From Gemmatimonadaceae bacterium (GTDB lineage Bacteria; Gemmatimonadota; Gemmatimonadetes; Gemmatimonadales; Gemmatimonadaceae): 34,579 nucleotides of DNA. The translations under genes and the position numbers were made by a program. Location of the stretch: NCBI GenBank assembly GCA_013816855.1, contig JACDDT010000021.1:1-34579 (forward strand), given 5' to 3'. This document shows, piece by piece, positions 12,640-33,108 of this stretch (positions within the stretch are counted from its first letter, which is position 1; every line of letters begins with the position of its first letter). Below the pieces are notes generated by a model that had not been told where the DNA came from, did not search any database, and saw nothing but the letters and a program-made list of their open reading frames with translations.

Positions 12640-14004
12640 TCAGGTTGTTTCGCGTGTGAGCGAATACCGTTCGATCTTCTTATAGAGGTTTGAGCGCGGC
12701 ATCTCGACCGCGCGCGCCGTTTCCGAGACGTTCCACTCGAACTCGCGCAGCTTCGCGAGCAGGAACGCACGCTCCGCGGCGTCCTTGAATTCCTCGAACG
12801 TCTTGCAGCCCGAGAGCGATGCGAGGCCGGTGTCGTCCAGCGTGCGCTGGCCGCTCAAGCGATCAACGTCTCCCGCGGTTATCTCGCTCCCCGAGCTGAG
12901 GATGAGCAGCCGCTCGACCGTGTTTCTCAGCTCGCGCACATTGCCCGGCCACTCAAGCGCGGAGAGACGTTGTATCGCGTCGCGAGCCATGGTACGCGGA
13001 ATGATTCCCTCGCGTAAGGTCAGGAGGTTCACGAAATATTCGGCCAACAGCGGAATGTCCTCCCGGCGCTCGCGCAGCGATGGAACGTGGACAGGGACGA
13101 CGTTCAGCCGGTAAAACAGATCCTCCCGAAACCGGCCGGCGCCAATCTCGGTTTCGAGATTTTTGTTCGTCGCCGCGATTACACGCACATCGACGGAGAC
13201 CGGTTTCGAGCCCCCGATTCTCGTCAGCACGTTGTCCTCGAGAACGCGCAGCACCTTCGCCTGCGCGGCGAGACTCATGTCGCCAATCTCGTCAAGGAAG
13301 AGCGTTCCGCGGTTCGCCTGCTCGAACTTTCCCGCGCGGTCGGATATCGCCCCGGTGAACGATCCTTTCACATGTCCGAAAAGCTCGCTTTCGATGAGCT
13401 CTCCGGGAATCGCCGCGCAGTTGACCTCAACGAACGGCTTCGATGCTCTAGGCGATCCGCGGTGGAGGGCGCGGGCGACGAGCTCTTTCCCGGTTCCATT
13501 CTCCCCTGTAACAAGCACGCGCGCGGGGGTGGATGCGACCTTGTCGATTTTTTCCTGGAGGGCGCGGATCGGCGCGGAGCGGCCGACGATCTGATAGGGC
13601 TCAACTGCCTCGCGCAATCGCGCGTTTTCCCTCTGGAGATCAACCTGCGAAACGGCATTTCGCAGGAGCACCAGGATACGATCGGTGTCGAGGGGCTTCT
13701 CGAGAATGTCGTATGCGCCGAGCTGCGTCGCTTCCACCGCCGTTCTAATGGTAGCGTGCCCGCTGATGATCACGACCGTCGCCGTAGGGTCGAGGTCGCG
13801 AATCTTTTTTAGCGCCTCAAGCCCGTCCATTCCCGCCATTTTCACGTCGAGAAAAACGAGATGCGGTCGCCAGCGTATGTATTCGGCGATGCCGTCAGGT
13901 CCGCTCGACGCCGTGCGCACGTCGTACCCTTCGTATTCCAGGAGTTGGCTCAGCGCTCCGCGGATTCCCTCCTCGTCGTCGACAACGAGAATCTTTCTGC
14001 TCAC
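12640..14004 (-). CDS. NtrC-family sigma-54-dependent response regulator
   Basis: The 454-residue product has a receiver domain (about 1-120, ILVVDDEEGIRGAL, phospho-acceptor D53 in VFLDVKM, late Lys in LEKPLD), an AAA+ activator domain (about 140-370) and a Fis-type helix-turn-helix at the C-terminus (NVSETARAVEMPRSNLYKKI). AAA+ features: Walker A GENGTGKE, the sigma-54-contacting loop as GSFTGA (Ser in place of the first Ala of GAFTGA), Walker B GTLFLDEIGDMS and sensor RVIAATNKNLE. It should therefore open sigma-54 promoters, which requires rpoN elsewhere. Its order and sequence resemble NtrX/AtoC regulators. The NtrY-like histidine kinase at 20229-23441 is the only sensor kinase in the window and a possible partner. 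It overlaps the upstream gene by 4 bp. Confidence 0.95.
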   Translation of the reverse strand: MSRKILVVDDEEGIRGALSQLLEYEGYDVRTASSGPDGIAEYIRWRPHLVFLDVKMAGMDGLEALKKIRDLDPTATVVIISGHATIRTAVEATQLGAYDILEKPLDTDRILVLLRNAVSQVDLQRENARLREAVEPYQIVGRSAPIRALQEKIDKVASTPARVLVTGENGTGKELVARALHRGSPRASKPFVEVNCAAIPGELIESELFGHVKGSFTGAISDRAGKFEQANRGTLFLDEIGDMSLAAQAKVLRVLEDNVLTRIGGSKPVSVDVRVIAATNKNLETEIGAGRFREDLFYRLNVVPVHVPSLRERREDIPLLAEYFVNLLTLREGIIPRTMARDAIQRLSALEWPGNVRELRNTVERLLILSSGSEITAGDVDRLSGQRTLDDTGLASLSGCKTFEEFKDAAERAFLLAKLREFEWNVSETARAVEMPRSNLYKKIERYSLTRETT

Positions 14005-14651
14005 TTCACACTCTTGTAGAGCGTGATTTTTCCATTCTCGATTCGAACGTCCGAGATGTAGTCAGGCATCTTCATCGGCAGCCCGCGGTCTGACAGGCCC
14101 TCAGCGTTTCCTTTCCGAAGCCGGGCGACTAGCCGCGGAATGAGAATGTTCGGAATTCCCGCCTGGCCGAATTTCATCTCTTGAACCGTGAATTCGCCGA
14201 CGCCTGGACGAAGAACGTGGATCGTGCCGCCGAGCTGCACGGTATCACGGTCGCCGATAAGCGATCCGAGCGGACCCAGGACCGAGGCGCCGCCAAAATC
14301 CTTGATCGAGATTTCCGAGCGGACGCGGAGCCGGTCGTTGATGGCGCTCGCCTGGATGTTCTTCGCCGATGCCGGAAACTGGCTGGTTGCGGCAAGGAAG
14401 ATGTACGAAGCCGCTTCGGCGGGAGTTATGTTCGCGAACACGGGGCCCGCGCGCTGCGACAATGACTCAACCGCCAGCTTGCCCCGCTGGGCTGCAGCGG
14501 GATTGAGCGGCTCCCAAGTGGCGCTCGATCTCGCCGGGCTTCCGCCGGGCACACTGCGGTCGCTGCCCTTTAGATGTGTGTAGAAATACCATCCACCGAG
14601 CCCGGCGATGATGATGAGGAGACATCCCAATCTGCGGAGACAACCGAACAT
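14001..14651 (-). CDS. Membrane-anchored protein of unknown function
   Basis: I do not recognise a family for this 216-residue protein. Residues 1-24 start MFGCLRRLGCLLIIIAGLGG, an N-terminal membrane anchor with the basic residues inside, so the rest is probably extracytoplasmic. The body has a strand-rich look (LRVRSEISIKDFGG, DTVQLGGTIHVLRPGVGEFT) and ends ISDVRIENGKITLYKSVK, reminiscent of small lipid-binding or AsmA-like beta domains, but this is only an impression. Its 5' end lies 82 bp inside comM in another frame. Its stop overlaps the start of the sigma-54 regulator (ATGA), implying translational coupling. The coupling makes envelope sensing or a function under that regulator plausible, but nothing in the sequence proves it. 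Confidence 0.75.
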   Translation of the reverse strand: MFGCLRRLGCLLIIIAGLGGWYFYTHLKGSDRSVPGGSPARSSATWEPLNPAAAQRGKLAVESLSQRAGPVFANITPAEAASYIFLAATSQFPASAKNIQASAINDRLRVRSEISIKDFGGASVLGPLGSLIGDRDTVQLGGTIHVLRPGVGEFTVQEMKFGQAGIPNILIPRLVARLRKGNAEGLSDRGLPMKMPDYISDVRIENGKITLYKSVK

Positions 14652-18459: not shown

Positions 18460-20232
18460 TCATCTGGCGAAAACTCGGCCCAACCACCCTACTCGGCGGC
18501 GGCCACGCACCACGTTCATAGCCTCCCGCCATGACGACTGCATCTCGGACGCGTCACTAAAACGGCTCTCAGGCTCAGGCTCGAGCGCTCGCTTCAGCCA
18601 CTCACAAACGGCTGTGGGATAAGGAGTCAAATCGGCCAAGCGCCCCAGCTGACGCCCTAAGATGGCCGTCGCGTCATCACTGCCAAACGGCGATTTCCCC
18701 GAGAGCGCGAAGATCACTATGGCAGCAACCGAGAAACAATCGGACTGCGGCCCTTGAAGCTCGCCAAGCAGCTGCTCGGGTGCCGAGAATGCCGGCGTGC
18801 CCGTTCCGCCTGTAACGTCTTCGCCTGTGATGTTCGCGATTCCGAAGTCCGTGAGCCTCCATCTGCGATAGCGGTCGATGAGAATGTTCTCCGGCTTGAG
18901 ATCGCGGTGAAGAATTCCGCGTGCGTGCGCTGCCCCTAACGCATCGAGGACCGCATCCACCTGGGGCGCTATCTCGCTCAAGGTGCGGGGACCGCCGCGC
19001 GCTACGAGATTCGCGATCGATCCTTCTTCAGCGAGCTCCATCGTGTACCACGCGACATCACCCCTGCTGTCGAGATCGTAGATCGGCACGATTGCGGGAT
19101 GCGCGAGCTGAGCGGCGAGGCGCGCTTCGCGCCAGAATGCGCGCACCGCGTCATCGTCGCGTGCGATCTGGGGATGGAGCGCCTTGAGTGCCACCTCGCG
19201 CTCGAGTGAAAGATCGCGCGCGCGCCACACAGTGCCGAACCCGCCTTTGCCGAGCTGCGAAAGAATTTCGTAATCGTCGCCCACCGCCCAGCGCAGGCGC
19301 GCTTCTTCCCCCTCGTCGGCGGACGGGGCGGGCGCTTCACCGCGCATCACCAATCCCGTGCGGAGTGAGTCACCGCGGTCGACTGACCGCATTAGCGCGC
19401 CCAGCGATGGAAACCGGTCGGCGGGGTCGCGAGACAATGCACGATCGACTGCCTTCGCAAGCACGTCCGGACACTCAGGGCGAACGAGCTTCACCGGCGG
19501 GATCTCGTCGCGTGGCGGCAGCTCGCCCGTGAGCGCGGAAAAGCAGATTGCGGCGATCTGCCATTGATCGCTCAGCGGACTGGGCTTCCAGCTCTCGCCC
19601 CATTCGGGAGGACGCGGGCGGGGCGAAGTGAGGGCGCGGAATTCATCTGCATTCGGCGGACGGGCACCTGCCGCGCCAGGCCTCGCGCCGGAGGGAATCG
19701 CGCCCTGCTCGATTGCCCACTGCCACTCCAGAACCCAAAGCCGTCCTGTCGGCGTCATCCACAACGCATCTGCGCTCAAGCCGCCGTGGGCGAGTCCCGT
19801 ATCATGCAAGTAAGCAAGTGTCGAGCAGCCGCCACGAATTACCTGAAGCACGAAAGGAATGTCGGCGAGACCGAGCCGGTGCAGTCGTGCGCTTACTGTT
19901 TCGCCCGTCACCCATCTCCGCAAATAACAGGGTCCGCGCCGGCCGTCGCCCTGTGCCATCCAGTAGTGATAAGTCGTTGGGATCGATGGATGACTTCGCT
20001 GCGCCAGCTGGCGGGCTTCGGCAAACAGCCACGCTGAATGCGCCGTATTCGGCACGGTGACCATCGCGAGCGAGCGCCCGAGGACGTCGACTACCTCCTG
20101 ATAATGCCGGTAGTCGCCGTAGAGCCCGTCTTCGCCCCACTTCCATCCCGGAGGCAGCTGCCATCCTTCGATGTGGATGGGAAGCCGCCGCGGCGAGCGC
20201 GGCTGCGGAGTTTCTGGGCGAGGAGCGGTCAT
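18460..20232 (-). CDS. Ser/Thr protein kinase: N-terminal pseudokinase fused to active Hanks-type kinase
   Basis: The 590-residue soluble protein has no membrane segment. Residues about 322-575 form a complete Hanks kinase: glycine loop LGKGGFGTVWRA, K350 in VALKAL, HRDLKPEN (D444), DFG (D462), TGTPAFSAPEQ and SDCFSVAAIVIFAL. Residues about 30-290 have the same architecture in decayed form. LAHGGLSADALWM stands for the catalytic loop (Asp lost), LWVLEW stands for DFG (Asp lost), and the beta-3 Lys is missing (LAMVTVPN), yet SDQWQIAAICFSALTGELPP and the RDPADRFPS end are kept. It is therefore a pseudokinase-kinase tandem, suggesting allosteric control in cis. The ATG overlaps the stop of the upstream histidine kinase by 4 bp, so the two are translationally coupled. 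Substrates are unknown. Confidence 0.92.
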   Translation of the reverse strand: MTAPRPETPQPRSPRRLPIHIEGWQLPPGWKWGEDGLYGDYRHYQEVVDVLGRSLAMVTVPNTAHSAWLFAEARQLAQRSHPSIPTTYHYWMAQGDGRRGPCYLRRWVTGETVSARLHRLGLADIPFVLQVIRGGCSTLAYLHDTGLAHGGLSADALWMTPTGRLWVLEWQWAIEQGAIPSGARPGAAGARPPNADEFRALTSPRPRPPEWGESWKPSPLSDQWQIAAICFSALTGELPPRDEIPPVKLVRPECPDVLAKAVDRALSRDPADRFPSLGALMRSVDRGDSLRTGLVMRGEAPAPSADEGEEARLRWAVGDDYEILSQLGKGGFGTVWRARDLSLEREVALKALHPQIARDDDAVRAFWREARLAAQLAHPAIVPIYDLDSRGDVAWYTMELAEEGSIANLVARGGPRTLSEIAPQVDAVLDALGAAHARGILHRDLKPENILIDRYRRWRLTDFGIANITGEDVTGGTGTPAFSAPEQLLGELQGPQSDCFSVAAIVIFALSGKSPFGSDDATAILGRQLGRLADLTPYPTAVCEWLKRALEPEPESRFSDASEMQSSWREAMNVVRGRRRVGWLGRVFAR

Positions 20233-23200
20233 CCGGGTCTCACCAGCGCGACGAGGACGCGCGCGCCTTTTCCTTCTTCGCTCGTAATTGCAATCTCGCC
20301 GCCCCAGTGCTCTATGATTCGCCGGCTACTGGCGAGACCCAGTCCGCTGCCCGTCGTCCGCGTTGAAAAATGCGGTTCGAATAGTCTCGTCAGAGCTGAC
20401 GCGGGAATTCCAGAGCCGTCGTCACAGGTTTCGATGGTCACTCGCTTCTCTTCTTCCCTCAACGTAATGACGACGCGGCGCGCTCCAGCGAGTCGCGCGT
20501 TCTCCAGAATGTTAAGCATTACCTCGCGCAGCTCTTCCGCCCGCGACATCGCGAGCATCGAGTGTTCCGCGCCACGGAGCCGCCACTTCACCTCGCCTTT
20601 TCCCATTTGCTCGAGCGCGACGATGTCCCGCAACACAGCGGACACATCGACGCGCTCGGCGGGAAGAAGATCAGCGGGCGCGCTTCCGTAACGGCTGAAA
20701 GAGCGCGCGATAGAATCGAGCCGGTCGATCTCAGAGAGAATCCTCGCCACGTTATCGTCGAGCACCTTGTCAAAGTCCGCGCGATTGTCTTTTCGCGCGC
20801 GTCTTAGATGCTGAACTCCGAGGCGGATCGGCGTGAGCGGATTTTTTATCTCGTGCGCGACCTGCCTCGCCATCTCGCCCCACGCGATGATTCGCTCAGC
20901 TCGCGCGACTTCAATGCGACTCAGCTCCAGATCCCGCGCGAGCCGCTTGGCGGCAACTCCGCTGAGCCACAATGCGGCTACTGCGCCCAGTGCCGTCGCA
21001 AACAGAACGAGCATGCCGAGATCCCGCCGCCGGCGATCCAGAACGAGATCGTCGCTGCGCGCGGGCGCAGACAAGATGAAGGGCTCCTCGTTGGTGCCCC
21101 TCGCGGCGCGATAACCGAAAAGCGCATCCACTGCTCCCACGCGCTGTTCGGCAGCGGCGGTCAGCTCACCTCGCACACCGATTTCCAGCTGCACGTCTCG
21201 CGGAAGGGCGACACCGCCGGGGGCAAGCGAGCCATAGAGTGGGTCGCTCGCTGAATCGAGAAACCCGGCCGAATAACGAAAGAGCGGCGTATCGAAACGT
21301 TCGCCGGCGCGCTGGAGATCGCCGGCCGCCGTTCCCGCGGAGAGCGTCGCGAGGGTTTCGTTGACGAGGAGCTCCCGGGTCTGGCGGTCGTCGGTGCGGA
21401 GCCGCTGGTACGACCACAGTGCGAATGCCAATGCCGGAATTATGAAAAAAGCGAACAGTGCGAGGGTAAGCCTGGCGCGATAGGTACGCGCCCATTTCGC
21501 GCCTCGCCTGCGGAGCAATCGCAAAAACGGCCGCTCCGCCGCCGCTCCTAACAACCACAGCAATCCCGCCAATAGCACGTCGAGCAGAACGATTAGAATG
21601 CCACGCTCCCCGCGCGCGAAGATCGAGCGCATATCGACCTCGACATGGGCGCGCTTGAGGCCGGCAGACGTGGGGATGAGACGGTCACCGTGCCATTGAT
21701 CGTCGATGCGATGCCAGACGACGCGGCCCATGTCAGCGGGCACGCCCCTACCTCCTTCAGGCATTGTCACCGTGTAGGGCGGATCGCCCCGCACCGGCGG
21801 TGAGACGCCGAGCAGCGGCGCAAAAGCAGGCGCGCCGACAAGCCGGGTGTGAGGCAGGACGATGGTCGTAGTGATGGCGCCATCGGAGTGCACCGCGGCG
21901 CCGGCCATTTGAACTCCGATGGTGCCAAGTACGGTAGTCACTGTGCCCGCCGCAGGAAAAGCGGATGACGACACAGTGCTAGACGAATCAGTGGCGCCCG
22001 GCGCGAGGTCGAGACGCGCTACGCGTTGGGAGCCGCGGCGGGTTTCGAGCACTACTGGAAATTCGGCGGCGCTCAGCTCGGAGGAAGAGTACAGCCGCAG
22101 TAAATCCGCAGCGCTGGCGGGTGTCTTCGCGCGTGAGAGATCCTCGAGGAAGCGTCGAACCAGAACGTCTTCCGATTCATCCACTCGCGTGAGCGCGGAG
22201 AGATCGCGCTCGGCCAATCGCATTCGCTGGCGGGTAGTGGTAACCCAAAGCGCAGCATTCGTCACTAGCGCGGCGATGAACGCGATAGACAATACCGCGC
22301 GTGCCGAAAGCATACTCGCTCGTGCAAATGCCATTCGGGCAAGCGATGCAAACGCGATGAGCACGGTGAGGAGAAATAGAAAAACTGGCAGCTCCCACGA
22401 GAGCCATAGTCCGGGAGTCGAACCCCACGAGGGCTGTCCAACGCCGCGCAGGATGTTGCTGCCGATGGCGAGCCCTGCGGCGAGTATGCAGATCGCGAGG
22501 GCGCCGGCAACCGGCCGGGGCATACTTCTCCAGCTTCGGGCGCGAGTCAGCGCAAACACCCCCATGAGGAGAAGGACCACTGTCGCAAGCAGCGCCGCTG
22601 CGTTCGCGGTGTATGGTCCGCCCACTCGAGAGAAGTAGAAAGCAGGATCGAAAGCCCGTGACGAGTTGGAGAAATCGCTCCACGGAACGAGTCCGGTGAT
22701 CACAAGCCCGGTGCCGATTGCCACGAGACGAAGCGCAAGGTCCTTCCGCTCTCGCCAGGCGGCGCCGAGTACGATCAGGAATCCAATGAGCAGAGCGACA
22801 CCGAGCAACGCTCTCGTGCGTGCCGCTCGCTCAAACCGGAGCTCCGCCGGATTGCGCGAGGAGGCGACGGCAAAGAGAAGCCCTCTGTTAGCGGCGGCAA
22901 CGATTGGAGCTGCAGCATCCGAAAGCGAATCCGCGGAAACGTTGAGATCGAAATGGACGCCGGCTTGCCGCCCGATTTTATTGACGAGTCCGTCCACGAC
23001 CCGCGACGCCGGAGGAAGGGCATACACGACGGTCGACGCGACGGCGCGCGCGCCGGACTTCTCGCGAACGACATGGAGAACGGTAAGGAACGCGTCACGA
23101 GTGATAGACAGAGGCGCGACGATGCCGTCCACTCTCACGCGCGGCTTCCCGACCCAGGCGCGCGGGGCCGAATCGAGGACGACTACCGACTCGAAATCTT

Positions 23201-23441
23201 CCTTGATGTCGAGGGCGGCGAGTGCGCGAAACGCTTCCGTCTGATCTCGCGGGATCGCGAGGGCAGCGTCGGCGAGATTGCCGAGGCGCGCCACCTCCGC
23301 GGTGAGAGAAGCACGCAGCACAGAAACGGACTCCTCCACGGATTTACGCCCGACGCCCACTGCCGTTAGCTGGGCGGTTCGCATCCAAAAAGCGACCGCG
23401 ACGAGAGCGACACACGCGCCGGTAAGGATTGCGCGACGCAC
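20229..23441 (-). CDS. NtrY-like multi-pass sensor histidine kinase
   Basis: The 1070-residue product has about ten predicted membrane segments (about 3-25, 209-229, 238-255, 278-299, 310-332, 345-371, 380-402, 614-634, 656-678, 807-831). These leave three large non-membrane stretches (26-208, 403-613, 679-806) that may be extracytoplasmic sensors. The cytoplasmic kinase core has the H-box AWGEMARQVAHEIKNPLTPI (H863), N-box LNILENARLAGA, G1 CDDGSGIP and G2 GSGLGLASS, with the WGEMARQVAHEIKNPLTPIRLGVQHLRR style of the NtrY family. I chose GTG at 23441 because AAGGGG lies 7 nt upstream and a membrane segment follows at once. The frame stays open further upstream across the divergent creatininase start. 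The last 4 bp overlap the Ser/Thr kinase. No receiver gene adjoins it; the NtrC-type regulator at 12640-14004 is a candidate partner. Confidence 0.9.
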   Translation of the reverse strand: MRRAILTGACVALVAVAFWMRTAQLTAVGVGRKSVEESVSVLRASLTAEVARLGNLADAALAIPRDQTEAFRALAALDIKEDFESVVVLDSAPRAWVGKPRVRVDGIVAPLSITRDAFLTVLHVVREKSGARAVASTVVYALPPASRVVDGLVNKIGRQAGVHFDLNVSADSLSDAAAPIVAAANRGLLFAVASSRNPAELRFERAARTRALLGVALLIGFLIVLGAAWRERKDLALRLVAIGTGLVITGLVPWSDFSNSSRAFDPAFYFSRVGGPYTANAAALLATVVLLLMGVFALTRARSWRSMPRPVAGALAICILAAGLAIGSNILRGVGQPSWGSTPGLWLSWELPVFLFLLTVLIAFASLARMAFARASMLSARAVLSIAFIAALVTNAALWVTTTRQRMRLAERDLSALTRVDESEDVLVRRFLEDLSRAKTPASAADLLRLYSSSELSAAEFPVVLETRRGSQRVARLDLAPGATDSSSTVSSSAFPAAGTVTTVLGTIGVQMAGAAVHSDGAITTTIVLPHTRLVGAPAFAPLLGVSPPVRGDPPYTVTMPEGGRGVPADMGRVVWHRIDDQWHGDRLIPTSAGLKRAHVEVDMRSIFARGERGILIVLLDVLLAGLLWLLGAAAERPFLRLLRRRGAKWARTYRARLTLALFAFFIIPALAFALWSYQRLRTDDRQTRELLVNETLATLSAGTAAGDLQRAGERFDTPLFRYSAGFLDSASDPLYGSLAPGGVALPRDVQLEIGVRGELTAAAEQRVGAVDALFGYRAARGTNEEPFILSAPARSDDLVLDRRRRDLGMLVLFATALGAVAALWLSGVAAKRLARDLELSRIEVARAERIIAWGEMARQVAHEIKNPLTPIRLGVQHLRRARKDNRADFDKVLDDNVARILSEIDRLDSIARSFSRYGSAPADLLPAERVDVSAVLRDIVALEQMGKGEVKWRLRGAEHSMLAMSRAEELREVMLNILENARLAGARRVVITLREEEKRVTIETCDDGSGIPASALTRLFEPHFSTRTTGSGLGLASSRRIIEHWGGEIAITSEEGKGARVLVALVRPG

Positions 23442-23496
23442 GCGCAATCCCCTTCTTTCGAAGCTTCGCACTGAAGCCGAGCTACTTACCGACACG

Positions 23497-24243
23497 ATGA
23501 CTGTTCCCTCAACCGCCTCCTCTCCGCGTCCCCTTCGGGTGAAAGAGCTCGGCCCCGCCGAGATCAACGCCGCCATGAACAATGACCCGCGGCTAATTAT
23601 TCCGGTGGGAACGTGCGAGCAGCACGGCCCCCACCTGCCGCTGGGCTGTGACACCATCATCGTCGAGCATCTGTGCGACGATTTGTCAGCAGAATATGGC
23701 GTGCTGCGAGCGCCAACGGTGGAGTATGGGGTCAACGTAGATACGGAGCGCGGGTTTCCAGGGAACGCATCGCTTCGTAAAAAAACGCTTCACCGCATGC
23801 TCAATGACCTGCTGGATGCGTGGGAGCACACCGGCATCTGCGAATTCATCTTGATCACCGCGCACGGGCATGACCCTCACCAGGAAGCGCTTGCGACTGT
23901 CACTACGATGAAAGCACGCGTGCGCGTCGTTGATATCTTCGGCGTCAATCTCTCGGATCTTCTCGAAGGCCAAACCGAAGCGATGCACGGCGACGAAGTG
24001 GATACATCGCTGATGCTCTTCCTCGCGCCCGAGCTAGTCCATGCCGAATCCGCGCAGGATTACATGATGAGCCGCGAAATGCTTCGCAGGTACCGTCGCG
24101 GCTCGCTGAAGGTGCCGAGTGGGAGCGCCGGCTCGATAGGAAGACCCTCGCTTGCCTCCGCCGAAAAGGGCAAGCTGTTGTACGAGCGCATCCGATCGAA
24201 GATCAGCGACCGGATCTTTCTGGCCCCCGCTTCGGAAGAGTAG
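23497..24243 (+). CDS. Creatininase-family metal-dependent hydrolase
   Basis: The 248-residue product belongs to the creatininase/MftE/ArfB amidohydrolase family, which opens cyclic amides or cleaves peptide-like bonds using two metal ions. The first metal motif is intact: IPVGTCEQHGPHLPLGCDT (Glu, His, Asp). The usual NGHGGN block reads ITAHGHDPHQ, and the HAGExETS block reads HGDEVDTS, so the metal shell is partly changed. The length is normal. The ATG at 23497 gives MTVPSTASSPRPLRVKELGP; 73 residues of upstream open frame overlap the histidine kinase on the other strand and are not family-like. No good Shine-Dalgarno sequence is visible. It is transcribed divergently from the histidine kinase across a 55-bp gap holding the palindrome CGAAGCTTCG (23459-23468). 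The substrate is unknown. Confidence 0.87.
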   Translation: MTVPSTASSPRPLRVKELGPAEINAAMNNDPRLIIPVGTCEQHGPHLPLGCDTIIVEHLCDDLSAEYGVLRAPTVEYGVNVDTERGFPGNASLRKKTLHRMLNDLLDAWEHTGICEFILITAHGHDPHQEALATVTTMKARVRVVDIFGVNLSDLLEGQTEAMHGDEVDTSLMLFLAPELVHAESAQDYMMSREMLRRYRRGSLKVPSGSAGSIGRPSLASAEKGKLLYERIRSKISDRIFLAPASEE

Positions 24244-24383: not shown

Positions 24384-25862
24384 ATGATGCGCTTTCTGTT
24401 TCTCTTGTCATTGGTCGGCGCCCAGACCGCGTCCGCTCAAGGCGGCCGTGATTCTCTCACGAAGTCGACGCTGTCGATGGACGAGGCAATCGCCATAGCC
24501 CGGCGCAACAATCCCGATTTCCTTCAGACGGTCAATAACCGGCATACGGCGAGCGCCGCAGTGCGCAGCGCATACGGTGCGCTTCTTCCCACCGCCGACG
24601 CATCGCTCGCCGCGACCCGCCAACAGAGTGGGCAGCAAATCGTCAGCGGCTCCTCGCTCGGCGCGAGCTCCGATATCAATCAGTCGAGCTATCGTATCGG
24701 GTTTGGCTACAGGCTCAATAGCGCGACGCTTATCACGCCCAGCCTGCAGCGTGCAAACAAGGACGCGGTCGAGGCAGACATCACCGGCGCCGCGCAGATG
24801 CTTCGCGACAACGTTGCCCGCCAGTACCTGACCGCGCTTCAGGCAGAAGCGCGCGCAGACCTTCAGGATTCGCTCCTCGTCGCCGCGCAAGCGCAGCGGG
24901 TGCTCGCGCAGGCGCGTGAAATCGTCGGATCGGGAACGCAGCTCGACGTGCAGCGCGCCGAAGTCACGCTCGGCCAGCAGCAGGTCGCCATTTTACAGGC
25001 GCGAAACCAGATCGAGATCGAGAAGCTCAAGCTGTTTCAAATAATGGGTGTGCAGCAGCCGGCGAACGTGCGCCTCGTCACCAACCTCGAAGTGCGGCCG
25101 ACTACGCTTTCGCTTCAAGAGCTACTCGAGTCGGCTCACCGCCAAAACCCGGTGGTGCTCGCCCTCCGCTCGCGGAAGCGTGTTGCCGAGCTCAATGTGC
25201 GGCGCGAGCGTGGCGAATACTCGCCAACGCTTTCACTCAGTACTGGCATCGGCGGCTACACGTATGGATACGTGAACGACAATTTCCCCGTTGCCCAGGC
25301 GCAGGCCTCGACCCTGGCTTCGAAGGCGAGCTGCATCCGCACCGAGGAGGTGCGCGCAGCGCTCAGCCTGAGCAACAATCTCGCCTCCTGCAGCGCGATT
25401 TCTTTCACGGATGCTCAGGCAGCAGCGCTTCGCACGCAGAACTCGAAATTCCCCTTCAATTTCACCAGAGCTCCGCGCTCAATTACGGCAGCGCTTTCTT
25501 TGCCGCTGTTCGACGGCTTCGCCCGTGAAGAGCGCGTCCAGCAGGCAATCGTCGCACGTGAGGATGCGCAGCTCGGCATTCGCTCGCGCGAGCTTGGGCT
25601 GAATGCGGAAGTCACGGGTGCTTATCTCACACTCACCACCGCGGAAAAAACTGTCGCTCTGCAGCAGCAGAATTCGGCAAAAGCGAAACAGGAGCTGACG
25701 CTGGTGCAGGAACGCTATCGTGTGGGCGCCACCACTTACGTGGACGTCATGCAGGCGCGCGCTGACTACGAGCGCGCGGAAAATGACCGCATCAACGCGG
25801 TCTATGATTACCACAAGGCCTTCGCAGCGCTCGAGAGCGCCGTCGGCCACCCCCTCCGCTAA
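24384..25862 (+). CDS. TolC-family outer-membrane efflux channel
   Basis: The 492-residue product forms the trimeric outer-membrane and periplasmic tunnel of tripartite exporters. It has a signal peptide (about 1-18, FLFLLSLVGAQTASA) and two repeats of the outer-membrane efflux fold. The first runs from about 30 to 235 (LSMDEAIAIARRNNPDFLQT, then long coiled-coil helices with ARADLQDSLLVAAQAQRVLA). The second runs from about 245 to 490 (LSLQELLESAHRQNPVVLAL, GATTYVDVMQARADYERAEN). The GATTYVDVMQA block near the C-terminus is the usual TolC signature. A Cys pair in the second half (residues about 318 and 336) could form a disulfide in a surface loop. It is the first gene after the promoter and leads into the adaptor gene with a 12-bp gap. 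Confidence 0.95.
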   Translation: MMRFLFLLSLVGAQTASAQGGRDSLTKSTLSMDEAIAIARRNNPDFLQTVNNRHTASAAVRSAYGALLPTADASLAATRQQSGQQIVSGSSLGASSDINQSSYRIGFGYRLNSATLITPSLQRANKDAVEADITGAAQMLRDNVARQYLTALQAEARADLQDSLLVAAQAQRVLAQAREIVGSGTQLDVQRAEVTLGQQQVAILQARNQIEIEKLKLFQIMGVQQPANVRLVTNLEVRPTTLSLQELLESAHRQNPVVLALRSRKRVAELNVRRERGEYSPTLSLSTGIGGYTYGYVNDNFPVAQAQASTLASKASCIRTEEVRAALSLSNNLASCSAISFTDAQAAALRTQNSKFPFNFTRAPRSITAALSLPLFDGFAREERVQQAIVAREDAQLGIRSRELGLNAEVTGAYLTLTTAEKTVALQQQNSAKAKQELTLVQERYRVGATTYVDVMQARADYERAENDRINAVYDYHKAFAALESAVGHPLR

Positions 25863-25874
25863 TCCGAGATCATC

Positions 25875-27164
25875 ATGAGTAAGAGAACGAAGCTGTCGGT
25901 TTTCGGCGCCATCGGCGTGGCGCTGCTTCTCATCGGCGTGACCGCGGCAATGAAAGGGCGCAACAAGGCGACTGAGGTGCGCATCGAGAAAGTGGAGCGT
26001 CGCGATCTCGTCGCGTCGGTGACCGCGAGCGGTCAGGTCCAGCCGCACACAAAGGTTGACTTGAGCGCTGACATCACCGGGCGCGTCGTGCGTCTCGCCG
26101 TGAAGGACGGCGACATGGTGACGAAGGGCCAGTTCCTTCTCGAGATCGACCCGACTCAGTATCAGGCGAATGTCGAGCGTGCGACTGCCGCTGTGGCGAG
26201 TGCACGCTCACAGTCCGCGCAGGCGAAGCCGTCGCTGCTGCAGGCGCAGCGCAGCTACGAGCGTCTCGCCGCGCTCAAGAAAGCAAACCCGACGCTCGTT
26301 TCGGACGAACAGCTCGAACAGCTTCGCACCAACGTCGAAGTCGCGCAGGCACAGCTGGAAGCGGCTAATCACGCGGTGGATCAGGCCTCGGCGTCAATGC
26401 GCGACGCGCGCAGCAGCCTGAACAAGACGACGCTCGTTGCCCCGATGAGCGGGCGCATCACCCGCCTCAACGTGGAAGCGGGCGAGACGGCAATCATGGG
26501 TACGCTGAATAAGGACGCCGCAACTCTTCTCACCATCAGCGACATGAGCCTGCTGGAAACGAAGGTGAAGGTGGACGAGACCGACGTCTCGCGCATAAAG
26601 CTCGGTGATTCGACGGTCATCCAGCTCGATGCGTTTCCGGATACGACCTTCATTGGACGAGTGTCGGAGATCTCTAACAGCTCGGTGAAGGCGGGTAACT
26701 CGGGCGGCATCGCGAGCTCTAGCGACCAGGCGATCGATTACGAAGTCACTATCACTCTCGTAAATGCTCCGCCCACGACCCGCCCCGACTTTTCCGCCAC
26801 GGCGAAGATCATCACAGACACTAGAAAGAGCGTGCTGTCGATCCCGATCATCGCGCTCACGGTGCGCGAGGATTCGGCCAACAAAGCGGATACGTTGGCG
26901 ACACTTGGCCACAAGAAGGCGGCAAAGGAAGTCGGGAAGCGCGACGTCGAAGGAGTGTTCGCCGTCGCTAATGACAGCAAAGTCATCTTCCGCCCCGTAC
27001 GTGTTGGTATCGCGGGCGAGAAGTACTTCGAGGTCCTCAGCGGATTGAAGGAAGGCGATCGAATTGTCGGCGGAACGTATCAGGCTATCCGCGAGCTGAA
27101 GGACGGCGCGCGCGTTAAGGAAACCAAGCAAGGCCCCGGCAAATCAAACGCGGTCAAATCGTGA
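25875..27164 (+). CDS. MacA/HlyD-type periplasmic adaptor protein
   Basis: The 429-residue product links the inner-membrane ABC transporter with the TolC-type channel. It has an N-terminal membrane anchor (about 8-26), a barrel-sandwich/lipoyl half ([20 protein letters not shown] near 50-70, [19 protein letters not shown] near 195), an alpha hairpin between them (about 95-185, with long Ala/Gln-rich coiled-coil helices), a beta-barrel domain (about 210-310, [20 protein letters not shown]) and a membrane-proximal domain. This order is that of MacA. The 3' end overlaps the ATPase start (GTGA), so the two are translationally coupled. A segment of about 30 charged residues near 345-370 ([18 protein letters not shown]) interrupts the last domain, as in several soil-bacterial homologues. 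Confidence 0.94.
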
Positions 27165-27979
27165 CATCGACAACGGACGAAATCCCGCTTAGCACGACAG
27201 CCGAGCGACAAGCGGTCACGAACGGCGGCGTAGCGCCCGAGAAGGATTGGGTAATCGTCACTCGCGGGCTGAAACGAGAGTACGACATGGGTGGCGAAAT
27301 CGTGCGCGCGCTTCGTGGCGTCGACGTCGCCATCCGCCGCAACGAATACGTCGCGATCATGGGACCGTCGGGCTCTGGGAAATCGACGCTCATGAACCTC
27401 ATCGGCTGCCTCGATACCCCGAACGCTGGCGAGTACTGGTTGAACGGCATGCTCGTGTCCGGCATGCACGAAGACGAACTCGCGCGCGTCCGGAACAAGG
27501 AGATCGGGTTCGTTTTCCAGACCTTCAATCTTCTGCCCCGCGCATCCGCCCTTCACAACGTCGAGCTGCCGCTCGTTTACGCCGGAGTTCCCGGTGACGA
27601 GCGCCGAAAGCGGGCCACTGAAGCGTTGACGCGCGTAAAGCTGGGCGACCGCATTCATCACCGGCCCAACGAGCTCTCCGGCGGTCAGCGGCAACGTGTC
27701 GCGATCGCGCGCGCGCTGGTAAACACGCCCGCCATTCTTCTCGCCGACGAGCCGACGGGCAACCTCGACTCCGCCACATCCGAAGAAATCATGGGCGTTT
27801 TTGAAGGGCTCGCGTCCGAAGGGCAGACGGTCATCATGGTCACGCACGAGCCCGACATCGCGGCGCACGCGCGCCGTGTCATCGTCCTCAAGGACGGCAT
27901 GATCGAGAGTGACGATCGCCGTGAGAATTTCAGAGCCAAAATCCATTCTACCGGCGGCGCGTCGAAGATAGGCATCTAG
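27161..27979 (+). CDS. MacB/LolD-type ABC transporter ATPase
   Basis: This 272-residue nucleotide-binding subunit powers a FtsX-type ABC transporter by the mechanotransmission mode known for MacB and LolCDE. Motifs: Walker [10 protein letters not shown] (68-76), Q-loop [20 protein letters not shown], signature [15 protein letters not shown], Walker [13 protein letters not shown] and the switch His in MVTHEPD. The [17 protein letters not shown] pattern is that of the MacB/LolD/FtsE subgroup. An N-terminal tail of about 30 residues precedes the domain. It starts with GTG overlapping the adaptor stop, and the first permease gene follows after 3 bp. It is the only ABC ATPase in the window although four permease genes follow. 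Confidence 0.96.
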
Positions 27980-27982
27980 CAG

Positions 27983-29224
27983 ATGCCGTTCATCGAGGCG
28001 GTCCGGCTCGCCCTCGCACAAATCCGCGTTCAGAAGCTGAAAAGCTTTTTCACGCTACTGGGTGTGACGATCGGAGTGATGTTCCTCATCGCCGTCATCT
28101 CCATCGTGCAGGGAATGAGCAGTTACATGGAGAACGATTTCGCGGCGAAGATGCTGGGCGTGAACACGTTCACCCTGCGGCGCTTCCCGTGGTTCGGAGA
28201 TGGCGCCCAGTCGGAAGCGGAGTGGCGTCAATGGGTCCGCCGGCCGCGCATCTATCATTCGGACCTGCCGCTCGTCACTCGCGCGGTGCCCCTCGGCAGC
28301 CGTATCGCCGTGGAAAGCCAGGAATTTCTCATCGCAGCCACGCAATGGGCGCGGCCGAAGCAGGTGGAAGCGCACGCCGTCGACGGGGATTACTTCGCTA
28401 TCAAGAAGTACGACGTCGCCTCCGGGCGCCTTTTCACCAACCAGGAAGCGGATCTCGGAGCGCCCATCGTCGTCATAGGCGATGAAGTGGCGAAATATTT
28501 CTTCCCGAACTTGAACCCAATCGGGAGAGATCTCCGCATCAAGGGGATTCCTTACCGCGTAATCGGAATACTCGAGAAACAAGGGAGCGTTTTCGGGCTT
28601 TCGCTCGACCGCGTCGCAATCGCGCCGTACAACTCGCCGATGCACCGCTTCACCAATCCGCGCGGCGACGTGGACGGAATCATGGTGCAGGCGCCCACGC
28701 CCAACGAGATGGACGAGGCGATGGAGTCGGTGCGTGAGGTGATGCGCGGCAAGCGGAACATGCGGCCGAGTGAGTCCGACAATTTCTTCATGGAGACTTC
28801 GGCCTCCGCGCTGGCTTTCATGGACAAGCTGAAGACGATCATGACGACCGCGGGCACCGCGTTTCCAGCGATCGGGCTGATCGTGGGCGGGCTAGTCATC
28901 ATGAACATCATGCTCGTTGCGGTAGCCGAACGCACTCACGAAATCGGCATTAGAAAGTCCCTCGGCGCGAGACGCCGGGACATTCTCCGTCAGTTCCTCG
29001 TCGAAGCGGCAACGCTGAGCACGATGGGCGCAATTGTCGGAATCATTCTTGGAATCGTCCTCGCCAAGGGGATCTCGATGGCGACGCCGCTGCCCGCGAA
29101 AGTGGCGCCGTGGTCGATCGTGCTCGCCACTCTCCTTGGCACCGTAGTTGGAGTGGTTTCAGGAGTGTATCCCGCGAAGCGGGCAGCCGGACTCGATCCG
29201 ATTGCCGCGCTGAGGAAGGAGTAG
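27983..29224 (+). CDS. MacB-like FtsX-domain permease, type A, copy 1
   Basis: This 413-residue permease has one N-terminal membrane helix (about 21-43), a MacB_PCD periplasmic domain (about 44-290) and three C-terminal helices (about 294-314, 343-362, 376-396). The FtsX domain carries the ERTHEIGIRKSLGARRRDILRQF coupling region that contacts the ATPase and ends GVYPAKRAAGLDPIAALRKE. No ATPase domain is fused, unlike true MacB. It is most like the third permease of the window (shared QIRVxKLxSFFTLLG start, shared PLPAxV..WS near the last helix), so the two are type A paralogues. The next gene, a type B permease, starts 2 bp later, suggesting an A-B heterodimer. Confidence 0.93.
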   Translation: MPFIEAVRLALAQIRVQKLKSFFTLLGVTIGVMFLIAVISIVQGMSSYMENDFAAKMLGVNTFTLRRFPWFGDGAQSEAEWRQWVRRPRIYHSDLPLVTRAVPLGSRIAVESQEFLIAATQWARPKQVEAHAVDGDYFAIKKYDVASGRLFTNQEADLGAPIVVIGDEVAKYFFPNLNPIGRDLRIKGIPYRVIGILEKQGSVFGLSLDRVAIAPYNSPMHRFTNPRGDVDGIMVQAPTPNEMDEAMESVREVMRGKRNMRPSESDNFFMETSASALAFMDKLKTIMTTAGTAFPAIGLIVGGLVIMNIMLVAVAERTHEIGIRKSLGARRRDILRQFLVEAATLSTMGAIVGIILGIVLAKGISMATPLPAKVAPWSIVLATLLGTVVGVVSGVYPAKRAAGLDPIAALRKE

Positions 29225-29226
29225 TA

Positions 29227-30498
29227 ATGCGAATCGTGCATCGAATCGTGAACGCGCTCGAAGGCGTGGGCATGGCCGTTGATTCGATCAAGGCGAATCG
29301 CGTCCGTGCCGCGCTCACCATCATGGGTGTAGCAATCGGTGTGTTCGTCGTCGTGGCGATGTCGTCGATCGTACGCGGCATCAACGAAAGCTTTGCCCGC
29401 GATCTCGAAGCGGCGGGGCCGACATCGTTCTACATGTACCGCCGGCCGATCAGCGGCTTCAACGCCTGTGACGGATCCGACGAAACCTGTCCGGAGCGGC
29501 GCAATCCGGCGCTGACCCTGGACGAGGCCAAAGCGATCGAGCGCCTGCCTACCATCAAAGCGGTCACCGCGCACCGCGCCATGAATTACAAGTTCGAGTA
29601 CAAGGACAAATCCACGAATGCAGGCGCGGAGACATACACGCCGAATTGGGTGGACGTGGACGGTGGTGACATCTATCCGGGCCGCAGCTTCACTTACGCC
29701 GAGAACCTGACCGGGGCGCACGTCGTCATCGTGAACGAGAAGCTCGCGCAGCGGCTGTTCGGCAGCTCCGATCCGATCGACAAGGAAATCAAGGTCGATG
29801 GCGTGCAGTTCAGAGTCATTGGCGTCTATCACTACACGGCGAGCCCGATGGGGACGCCGACGGCTGCAGGCGGCGGCGATCAGGCGAAGGGGATTCTCCC
29901 GATCGAGACCGCGCGACGCAGTCTCGCGCTCTACATGCGCGGAGTCGATTTCATCGTGAAGCCTATGCCGGGAGTGACCGCGCTCGAAGCGACGGACGAC
30001 GTAACGGCGCTGATGCGGGCGACGCGCGGCCTCAAGGGATCAGTGAAAAACAATTTCGAGATCGTGACGCAGGATCGGCTCCTGGGCATTTACAACAAGC
30101 TCTTCGGAACGTTCTTCGTGGTGGGCCTCGCGCTATCGTCGATCGGGCTGATGGTTGGTGGTGTGGGAGTGGTTGCCATCATGATGATCAGCGTGACCGA
30201 GAGGACGCGCGAGATCGGTGTGCGAAAAGCGCTCGGCGCCACGAAGAGCGCAATTCTTTGGCAGTTCCTCGTGGAGGCTTCGACGCTGACTACGATTGGC
30301 GCGTCGATCGGCCTGGCGCTGGGAATGGGAGTAGCTATAGCGGTGCGGACTGCCTTCCCCGCCATTCCCGCATCCACACCATTCTCGGCGGTGGTGTCCG
30401 CGCTTTTGGCAAGCGCGGTAACGGGAATCGTGTTCGGAATTCTGCCCGCTGCCAGGGCAGCGAGGCTCGACCCGGTAGAGGCGCTGCGCTACGAATAG
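29227..30498 (+). CDS. MacB-like FtsX-domain permease, type B, copy 1
   Basis: The 423-residue permease has the same layout as its neighbour: an N-terminal helix (about 27-50, ALTIMGVAIGVFVVVAMSSI), a periplasmic MacB_PCD domain, and three C-terminal helices around SSIGLMVGGVGVVAIMM, the ERTREIGVRKALGATKSAILWQF coupling region and ILPAARAARLDPVEALRYE. Its AGPTSFYMYR segment and ALRYE end group it with the fourth permease (type B). A pair of periplasmic cysteines (FNACDGSDETCPERR) may form a disulfide and has no counterpart in copy 2. ATG at 29227 is chosen; 39 further upstream residues overlap the preceding gene and are a shadow. A strong terminator follows. Confidence 0.93.
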   Translation: MRIVHRIVNALEGVGMAVDSIKANRVRAALTIMGVAIGVFVVVAMSSIVRGINESFARDLEAAGPTSFYMYRRPISGFNACDGSDETCPERRNPALTLDEAKAIERLPTIKAVTAHRAMNYKFEYKDKSTNAGAETYTPNWVDVDGGDIYPGRSFTYAENLTGAHVVIVNEKLAQRLFGSSDPIDKEIKVDGVQFRVIGVYHYTASPMGTPTAAGGGDQAKGILPIETARRSLALYMRGVDFIVKPMPGVTALEATDDVTALMRATRGLKGSVKNNFEIVTQDRLLGIYNKLFGTFFVVGLALSSIGLMVGGVGVVAIMMISVTERTREIGVRKALGATKSAILWQFLVEASTLTTIGASIGLALGMGVAIAVRTAFPAIPASTPFSAVVSALLASAVTGIVFGILPAARAARLDPVEALRYE

Positions 30499-30520
30499 CG
30501 AGCGCGACGACGAAATGAAA

Positions 30521-30550
30521 AAGCCGCTTATCTGATAAGCGGCTTTTTTT
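30521..30550 (+). terminator. Strong rho-independent terminator between the two permease pairs
   Basis: AAGCCGCTTA (30521-30530), loop TCTGA, TAAGCGGCTT, then a run of T (to 30550). A 10-bp perfect stem with an A-tract on the left means it may act in both directions. It ends the tolC operon 23 bp after the second permease. The remaining 78 bp before the next ATG must hold the promoter of the second pair unless read-through occurs. No clear -35/-10 is visible there. Confidence 0.92.
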
Positions 30551-30628
30551 GTGTGACACTGACATCGCGGGCGTGGGGCACACGTGCTCACGCTGTTCGC
30601 ATGGACACGCCGCGGCTAACTTCTGCAC

Positions 30629-31866
<1,238 letters not shown>

Positions 31867-31870
<4 letters not shown>

Positions 31871-33108
31871 TCGCGGAGACACTCGGTGCCAATGTCATGC
31901 TGGCGGTGGACAATCTTCGCGGAAACAAGCTGCGCTCCGCGCTCACCATTCTCGGCGTGGTGATCGGGGTCACGACGGTGATGACGATGGCGTCCATCGT
32001 TCAAGGAATCAAAGGTCAGATCGTCCGCACGATCGAAGTCGCGGGCCCAACGACGTTTTATGTAGTTAAAGTTTTTTCAAACACCCCGGTCAACCCTGAC
32101 CGCCCGCCGAAATGGATTCGTGTCCGCCCGAATCTCAAAGAAGAGGAGGCGGAGCGAATCGCGAAGCTGCCGGAGATTTCCTACGCCGCTATATGGGGCC
32201 AGGCGGTTGGCCGCCTGGAGTACAACGGGCTGCGCACCGGAACGTTGGGGATCGTCGGGGCGGACGACCGCTATATGGAAATCCAGGGCGGAGAGCTCGA
32301 GCAGGGTCGCTGGTTCACGCAGTCCGAGCTTACCTCCGGATCACCGGTAGTGGTGCTCCAGGAAGACGCCGCGAGACGTGTGTTCGGAGCGGAAACCGTC
32401 CTCGAGAAAATGGTGCAGTTCGGCGGGCGGCCGATGCGCGTGATCGGGCTGTACGCTCCGCCGGGCAACATTTTCAGTCCTCCGGGGCAAGACATCGGCG
32501 CAATCGTTCCTTTCAAATTTCTCGATCACGCGTTTTACGTGGACCCGATCAACGCGCTTTACATTCCGGTAAAACCGAAGGCGAGCGTTCCGATTCAGGA
32601 CGCAAAGGACGCGGTAACGATCGCGATGCGCGAGCTACGAAAGCTGCGTCCGGCGGACAAGAGCACCTTCGACTTGATCACCAACGATCAGATTCTCGAC
32701 AGTTTCAATCAGATCAGCAACGTTTTCTTTCTGGTGATGATCGTTCTTTCTAGTGTCGGCCTCATGGTGGGCGGCATTGGAGTGATGGCGATCATGATGG
32801 TGTCCGTCACGAGCAGAACCCGCGAGATCGGCATCCGAAAGGCGATGGGCGCGACGCAGAAACAGATTCTCACCCAGTTCCTGGTCGAGGCGGCGACATT
32901 GACGGGTATCGGAGGCGTGATGGGAATCGTCATCGGACTCTCGATGGGCCGCCTTGCCACGACGATAATGAAAATCGACGCGAGCTTTCCGATTGTGCTC
33001 ACTGCAGTGGCAGTCACCGTGTCGGTTGCCATCGGCATCATCTTCGGAATGCTTCCCGCTCGGCGGGCAGCGCGGATGGATCCGATTGTCGCTCTGAGAT
33101 ACGAGTAG
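31867..33108 (+). CDS. MacB-like FtsX-domain permease, type B, copy 2
   Basis: The 413-residue permease starts MIAETLGANVMLAVDNLRGN at the ATGA overlap; 56 longer upstream residues in the open frame lie in the preceding gene and are not used. Layout: N-terminal helix (about 22-44, SALTILGVVIGVTTVMTMAS), a periplasmic domain with AGPTTFYVVK like copy 1, and three C-terminal helices with SSVGLMVGGIGVMAIMM, the SRTREIGIRKAMGATQKQILTQF coupling region and MLPARRAARMDPIVALRYE. It forms the second A-B pair with the 30629 gene. It probably recruits the ATPase encoded at 27161 or one elsewhere in the genome. A 24-bp gap separates it from bshB1. Confidence 0.93.

Follow-up and report, generated by a model that had tools for sequence, protein, structure and literature searches.

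A soluble 590-residue protein of a Gemmatimonadaceae bacterium joins a kinase domain that has lost its catalytic residues to an apparently working Ser/Thr-type kinase, and the pairing has been preserved across most of one bacterial family. What is new is that the pseudokinase-kinase stands alone, in minimal form and away from any defence locus; the order of an inactive followed by an active kinase is already known in bacteria. Our best reading, to which we assign a probability of roughly 0.55, is that the pseudokinase is a docking and allosteric module setting the activity of the attached kinase in cis, with input from a membrane histidine kinase. The gene lies in a stretch of 34,579 nucleotides (the window; contig JACDDT010000021.1 of assembly GCA_013816855.1, positions 1 to 34,579 of the forward strand), and its features are collected in Table 1.

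Table 1. Positions in the window of the tandem kinase gene, its parts and its neighbours
Feature	Positions	Strand	Basis or remark
Tandem pseudokinase-kinase gene	18460..20232	-	590 aa, ATG start; orthologues found
N-terminal pseudokinase domain, about residues 17-290 (predicted)	19363..20184	-	phmmer PknA, AlphaFold2, Foldseek PknB
Beta-3 Lys position, codon of residue 58 (Val here)	20059..20061	-	alignment of 84
Degenerate catalytic loop, residues 149-156 (HGGLSADA)	19765..19788	-	alignment of 84
Degenerate DFG, residues 169-171 (EWQ)	19720..19728	-	alignment of 84
Linker, residues 291-315, leading into predicted helix 309-320	19288..19362	-	family alignment, full-length model
C-terminal Ser/Thr-type kinase, residues 316-566, motifs intact	18535..19287	-	Pfam Pkinase match at residues 321-562, 2.5e-42; alignment
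C-terminal tail, residues 567-590, end of predicted helix 561-589	18463..18534	-	alignment, model
Histidine kinase gene (HisKA and HATPase_c, ten TM-like segments)	20229..23735	-	directly upstream
NtrX/NtrC-type response regulator	12640..14004	-	NtrX model 469.5 bits, below cut-off 600
216-aa open reading frame	14001..14651	-	no Pfam or NCBIfam match
Tripartite-efflux-like cluster (OEP, HlyD, ABC ATPase)	24384..33108	+	divergent from histidine kinase gene

The N-terminal half gives no Pfam match of its own at E<=1. A phmmer search of the PDB with residues 1-301 returned PknA at 1.3e-8 over residues 69-240, and this half is therefore by sequence a divergent kinase relative. AlphaFold2 modelled residues 1-300 with pLDDT 85.4 and pTM 0.84 (alignment of 71 sequences), and the predicted model contains the strands and helices of both lobes of a complete bilobal kinase; PknB and PknA top its Foldseek list, the first match at 7.9e-15 with a TM score of 0.67 by query and 0.73 by target. 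The proposal of the initial annotation that the first 260 or so residues keep the outline of a kinase is thus borne out, by prediction, as a complete kinase fold whose nearest matches are PknB and PknA.

The catalytic residues of this fold are gone. In the window protein, position 58 is Val, the equivalent of HRDxKPxN reads H149-G-G-L-S-A-D-A, that of DFG reads E169-W-Q, and the GxGxxG loop is absent, so that the initial annotation was right in calling the beta-3 Lys and both catalytic Asp residues missing (at V58, position 151 and E169; its 'LEW' corresponds to residues 168-170). The same losses run through the orthologues, which were compared in an alignment of 84 distinct sequences including that of the window, with 12 partial rows and identical copies dropped. 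Lys occurs at position 58 in none of them (82 Val, one Thr, one Ile), the HRD-Asp position 151 carries Asp in only four (63 Ala, ten Gly, four Cys, three Ser), and the DFG-Asp position 169 carries it in one (63 Gly, 14 Glu, three Ala and one each of Gln, Asn and His), leaving an acidic residue there in 15 of the 84. The DFG-Phe position 170 is Trp in every sequence and is followed by Gln (50) or Glu (34). No sequence has more than one of the beta-3 Lys, HRD-Asp and DFG-Asp together. Five retain a single catalytic Asp (four at HRD, one at DFG) with the other catalytic residues gone, and four further sequences retain the HRD-Arg alone; because of these nine rows the catalytic loss is general, yet not identical in every sequence. 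Invariant in all 84 are E72 (alphaC-Glu), E210 (APE-Glu), D222 (F-helix-Asp) and R273, and H149 is found in 83. Judged by its sequence and predicted fold, the N-terminal half is a pseudokinase, a kinase fold that would be unable to phosphorylate. Of the two outcomes that the initial annotation said would refute it, an N-terminal half not folded as a kinase (checked by prediction) and intact nucleotide-binding residues in orthologues, neither came up. Nucleotide binding of the usual type is most likely absent as well, given the beta-3 Val, the missing glycine-rich loop and the change of DFG to [G/E]W[Q/E].

The C-terminal kinase had been called intact, and the full alignment agrees. The window protein has GxGxFG, K350, HRDLKPEN (442-449), DFG (462-464) and APE (484-486); K350, H442, R443, D444, K446, N449, D462, F463 and G464 are present in 84 of 84 sequences, and E369 in all 72 rows of the family alignment. 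This half, PknB-like in its NCBIfam and structure matches, is apparently a working Ser/Thr-type kinase. Conservation extends beyond the two domains: E310, R312, R314, W315 and A316 of the linker, and W568 and a W583/W584-type pair in the tail, are each at least 90% conserved in the family alignment (72 rows). Across the 590 residues Pfam at E<=1 reports kinase families only, and neither Pfam nor NCBIfam finds a PASTA or other sensor domain, as had been proposed. The protein had also been described as soluble, and a Kyte-Doolittle scan found no TM segment in it, the highest 19-residue mean being 1.52 at residue 499, within predicted helix 495-511. One segment above 1.6 occurs in 24 of the 83 other sequences, at local positions 459-495, and we read these segments as the same buried F-helix.

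Both halves are held by selection. The N-terminal half has 43 invariant positions among 259 and the C-terminal half 56 among 250; identity to the window protein is higher in the C-terminal half in every one of the 83 comparisons (66% versus 56% on average). Median dN/dS among close pairs is 0.101 for the N-terminal and 0.074 for the C-terminal half, based on 121 usable of 128 pairs that are not independent of one another. The N-terminal half is under purifying selection and is kept a little less tightly than its partner. That a dead domain is so well preserved points to a part in controlling or guiding the live kinase. The two halves are joined in all 84 aligned orthologues and in two paralogues, longer second copies carried by two genomes as open frames of 700 and 697 aa (L129 and L130). 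The halves of these long copies fall in the N- and C-terminal clades, and the fusion is therefore older than that duplication.

The arrangement is, as far as searched, limited to one bacterial family. In a sample of 249 Gemmatimonadota genomes, the N-terminal profile matched 107 at E<=1e-20, of which 81 belong to Gemmatimonadaceae, one of them (G084) only at the strength of an ordinary kinase. The tandem protein is thereby placed in 80 of 87 Gemmatimonadaceae genomes and in none of the 162 other Gemmatimonadota sampled, where 26 match the profile with a best value of 1.0e-26, again ordinary-kinase strength. Among the listed genomes without a match at E<=1e-20, which run in order of kinship and begin with the family, are six further Gemmatimonadaceae; four of them (G023, G125, G142 and G266) come from genus g6, unlike most of the family, and their lack of a match would reflect either loss or early branching. 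Among plasmid homologues, 796 records matched and none covered 80% of the query.

The gene directly upstream offers a candidate source of input. The stop of the histidine kinase gene overlaps the start of the tandem kinase gene by 4 nt. Of 80 loci, six were set aside for a missing 5' end or too little upstream DNA, and in 49 of the remaining 74 the orthologue starts at or near the end of such a histidine kinase gene. Another 15 have a gene of the same type no more than about 10 kb away, inverted and downstream in 14 of them; it was not seen in the other ten, some of which have short flanks. This linkage suggests a common role for the histidine kinase and the tandem kinase. At its N-terminus the histidine kinase carries a long multi-TM part; many relatives match over roughly the final 19% only, so the sensor part varies or is replaced. 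The NtrX/NtrC-type regulator is a possible partner of the histidine kinase, and we infer its tie to the tandem kinase only tentatively. Relatives of the 216-aa open reading frame adjoin the NtrX-type regulator gene in six loci (L041, L045, L053, L099, L113 and L116). The efflux-like cluster includes four consecutive MacB/FtsX-type permease frames, and many orthologues of the tandem kinase have OEP and HlyD relatives nearby. Among the Pfam-annotated neighbours in the window there are no BREX partner genes and no defence genes.

The initial annotation likened the protein to JAK-type control. In JAKs the pseudokinase JH2 precedes the kinase JH1; these tyrosine kinases also have FERM and SH2-like domains, and their JH2 binds nucleotide. 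The likeness holds for the order of the domains and fails for domain content and kinase type: the active half here is PknB-like, Pfam finds kinase domains only, with no FERM or SH2-like part, and the beta-3 Lys is lost in 84 of 84 sequences. JAK-type control is therefore only an analogy, and Gcn2 and PglW are nearer comparisons. In Gcn2 a pseudokinase contacts and activates the adjoining kinase (PMC4014428), and here too a pseudokinase adjoins an active Ser/Thr kinase; Gcn2 differs in having a HisRS-like tRNA-binding domain (PMC4014428), where the tandem protein has kinase domains only, and homology of the arrangement is not claimed.

The arrangement had also been called unusual in bacteria, which is too broad as worded. 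In PglW of type-2 BREX, and in some DndF proteins, a NERD nuclease is described as preceding an inactive and then an active kinase (PMC12839542). Streptomyces PglW is described as having two kinase domains with an ATP site in the second only, and its K677 as required for autophosphorylation and phage resistance (PMC4365076). PglW and the tandem protein thus have in common that an inactive kinase precedes an active Ser/Thr one within a single bacterial protein, and PglW models match the tandem protein co-linearly over both halves (129-574 to 315-772; NF033442 at 8.3e-25, PDLC02512 at 1e-24). Unlike PglW, however, the tandem protein has no NERD nuclease, C-terminal DNA-binding or STAND part, and it scores 86.7 bits against an NCBIfam cut-off of 990. 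PglW itself exceeds its cut-off in two of the 249 phylum genomes, that of the window not among them. A defence role was considered and set aside: in PADLOC, 24 of the 25 best stretches (25 of 33 matched models) fall on the active kinase half, PglW alone among those 25 spans both halves, and the neighbours are not defence genes.

Other bacterial kinases resemble the protein in part. PknA and PknB are the nearest solved structures to the N-terminal half, by sequence and by fold, and, among the best 50 matches, to the full-length model. The best NCBIfam match of the whole protein is the PASTA-kinase model NF033483 (202.5 bits versus a cut-off of 450), and in contrast to PASTA kinases (PknB/Stk1) the protein shows no PASTA match and no TM segment and has an extra dead kinase domain. 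In GLW pseudokinases, GLW replaces HRD, beta-3 is poly-Leu and a C-terminal TM region is present (PMC12599244), whereas the tandem N-terminal half has H[G/R][A/G/C/D/S] at the HRD site in 83 of 84 sequences and no TM segment. CP1 pseudokinases are linked to a COG3899 ATPase domain (PMC12599244), whereas Pfam shows kinase families only in the 590 residues here. That review of bacterial pseudokinases does not use 'tandem' or 'Gemmatimon' in its main text, and among its families considered here there is none with a tandem pseudokinase-kinase arrangement (PMC12599244). The tandem protein is likewise unnamed in the titles and abstract openings of the open-licence PMC papers retrieved, which is weak evidence of absence.

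Where the dead domain came from can be narrowed in part. A recent duplication of the C-terminal half as its source is disfavoured by profile scores and by the tree. The N-terminal profile finds 75 of the 84 attached C-terminal halves, at 21.8-46.4 bits (median 27.8), and scores 11 other kinases at 35.8-92.3 bits, mostly above the attached halves; constraining the N- and C-terminal halves to one clade gives p-AU 0.037. In profile-profile comparison the N-terminal half scores highest against ordinary kinases (204), ahead of the C-terminal half (109), the PglW kinase (101) and the PglW pseudokinase (89), and the C-terminal half scores 489 with ordinary kinases and 187 with the PglW kinase. The sets behind these origin comparisons are small, with 7 + 7 PglW rows from eight proteins, plus 12 ordinary kinases, all of them from Gemmatimonadota. 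The pseudokinase rows omit L140, whose N-lobe came out of frame, and the kinase rows omit L138. The tree joins the N-terminal half with PglW pseudokinases (97/81), under a long-branch warning, and with either group removed the other attaches elsewhere on a long branch. The N-terminal half may descend from a PglW pseudokinase, as the tree would have it, but the profile scores do not favour this. Trp occupies the DFG-Phe position in 84 of 84 sequences here and in 8 of 8 PglW-type rows, which may reflect shared descent or convergence. The C-terminal half groups in the tree with ordinary kinases of the phylum (97/95) and not with the PglW kinase, a placement that favours a separate origin for the tandem.

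How the two halves would work together can be sketched as follows. The dead N-terminal domain would be retained for docking and for allosteric action on the attached PknB-like kinase, coupled to it via the conserved helix 309-320 just before the kinase N-lobe. The signal would most plausibly come from the upstream membrane histidine kinase or its regulator, either of which could dock on the dead domain at a conserved surface rich in Trp; the resulting control might be activating or inhibiting. The full-length model has pLDDT 84.0 and pTM 0.64, with the linker at 289-301 below pLDDT 50, and therefore does not fix the arrangement of the domains; among the best 50 structural matches listed for it there is no two-domain match, all aligning over one domain. 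A broader claim is that this bacterial lineage arrived on its own, separately from PglW and from eukaryotes, at a minimal soluble switch whose dead domain gates the attached Ser/Thr kinase allosterically and couples it to the membrane histidine kinase, relaying a two-component signal through a pseudokinase as Ser/Thr phosphorylation; in that full form we consider it rather unlikely.

The strongest rival to control in cis is a pure scaffold, in which the pseudokinase would only recruit a substrate or partner (e.g. the histidine kinase or response regulator) or hold a dimer, leaving kinase activity unchanged. We regard this as possible. For EssB/YukC and the MviN pseudokinase a role in recruitment or dimer formation is described (PMC12599244), the linker of the full-length model is flexible, and the many invariant Trp and Arg residues of the N-terminal half would fit a binding surface; the conserved helix running straight into the kinase domain nevertheless suggests more than a loose tether, although it is not decisive. 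It is less probable still that the N-terminal half has taken up some other ATP-dependent or ligand-binding activity, as in SidJ or SelO, and would be a second enzyme or sensor and no regulator. Pseudokinases with new activities exist (PMC12599244), and the residue set of this half is both unusual and strongly conserved, but the universal loss of the beta-3 Lys, the scarcity of acidic residues at the DFG-Asp position and the missing glycine-rich loop count against it. That the half is merely a functionless, degenerate kinase copy is scarcely credible. A kinase fold stripped of its catalytic residues is what such decay might leave behind, but a median dN/dS near 0.10 and the invariant sixth or so of its positions (43/259) disfavour it, and the weak profile scores of the attached C-terminal halves, together with the p-AU value, do not fit a decaying duplicate.

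Bacterial pseudokinases are largely unexplored by experiment (PMC12599244), and control of an attached kinase by a dead one has counterparts in some yeast and human proteins. In Gemmatimonadaceae a pseudokinase is fixed to its probable target within 590 residues, in a protein kept by nearly the whole family. It would offer a compact system in which to ask whether pseudokinase control of an adjoining kinase has arisen in bacteria outside defence, and whether the tandem protein joins histidine-kinase to Ser/Thr-kinase signalling.
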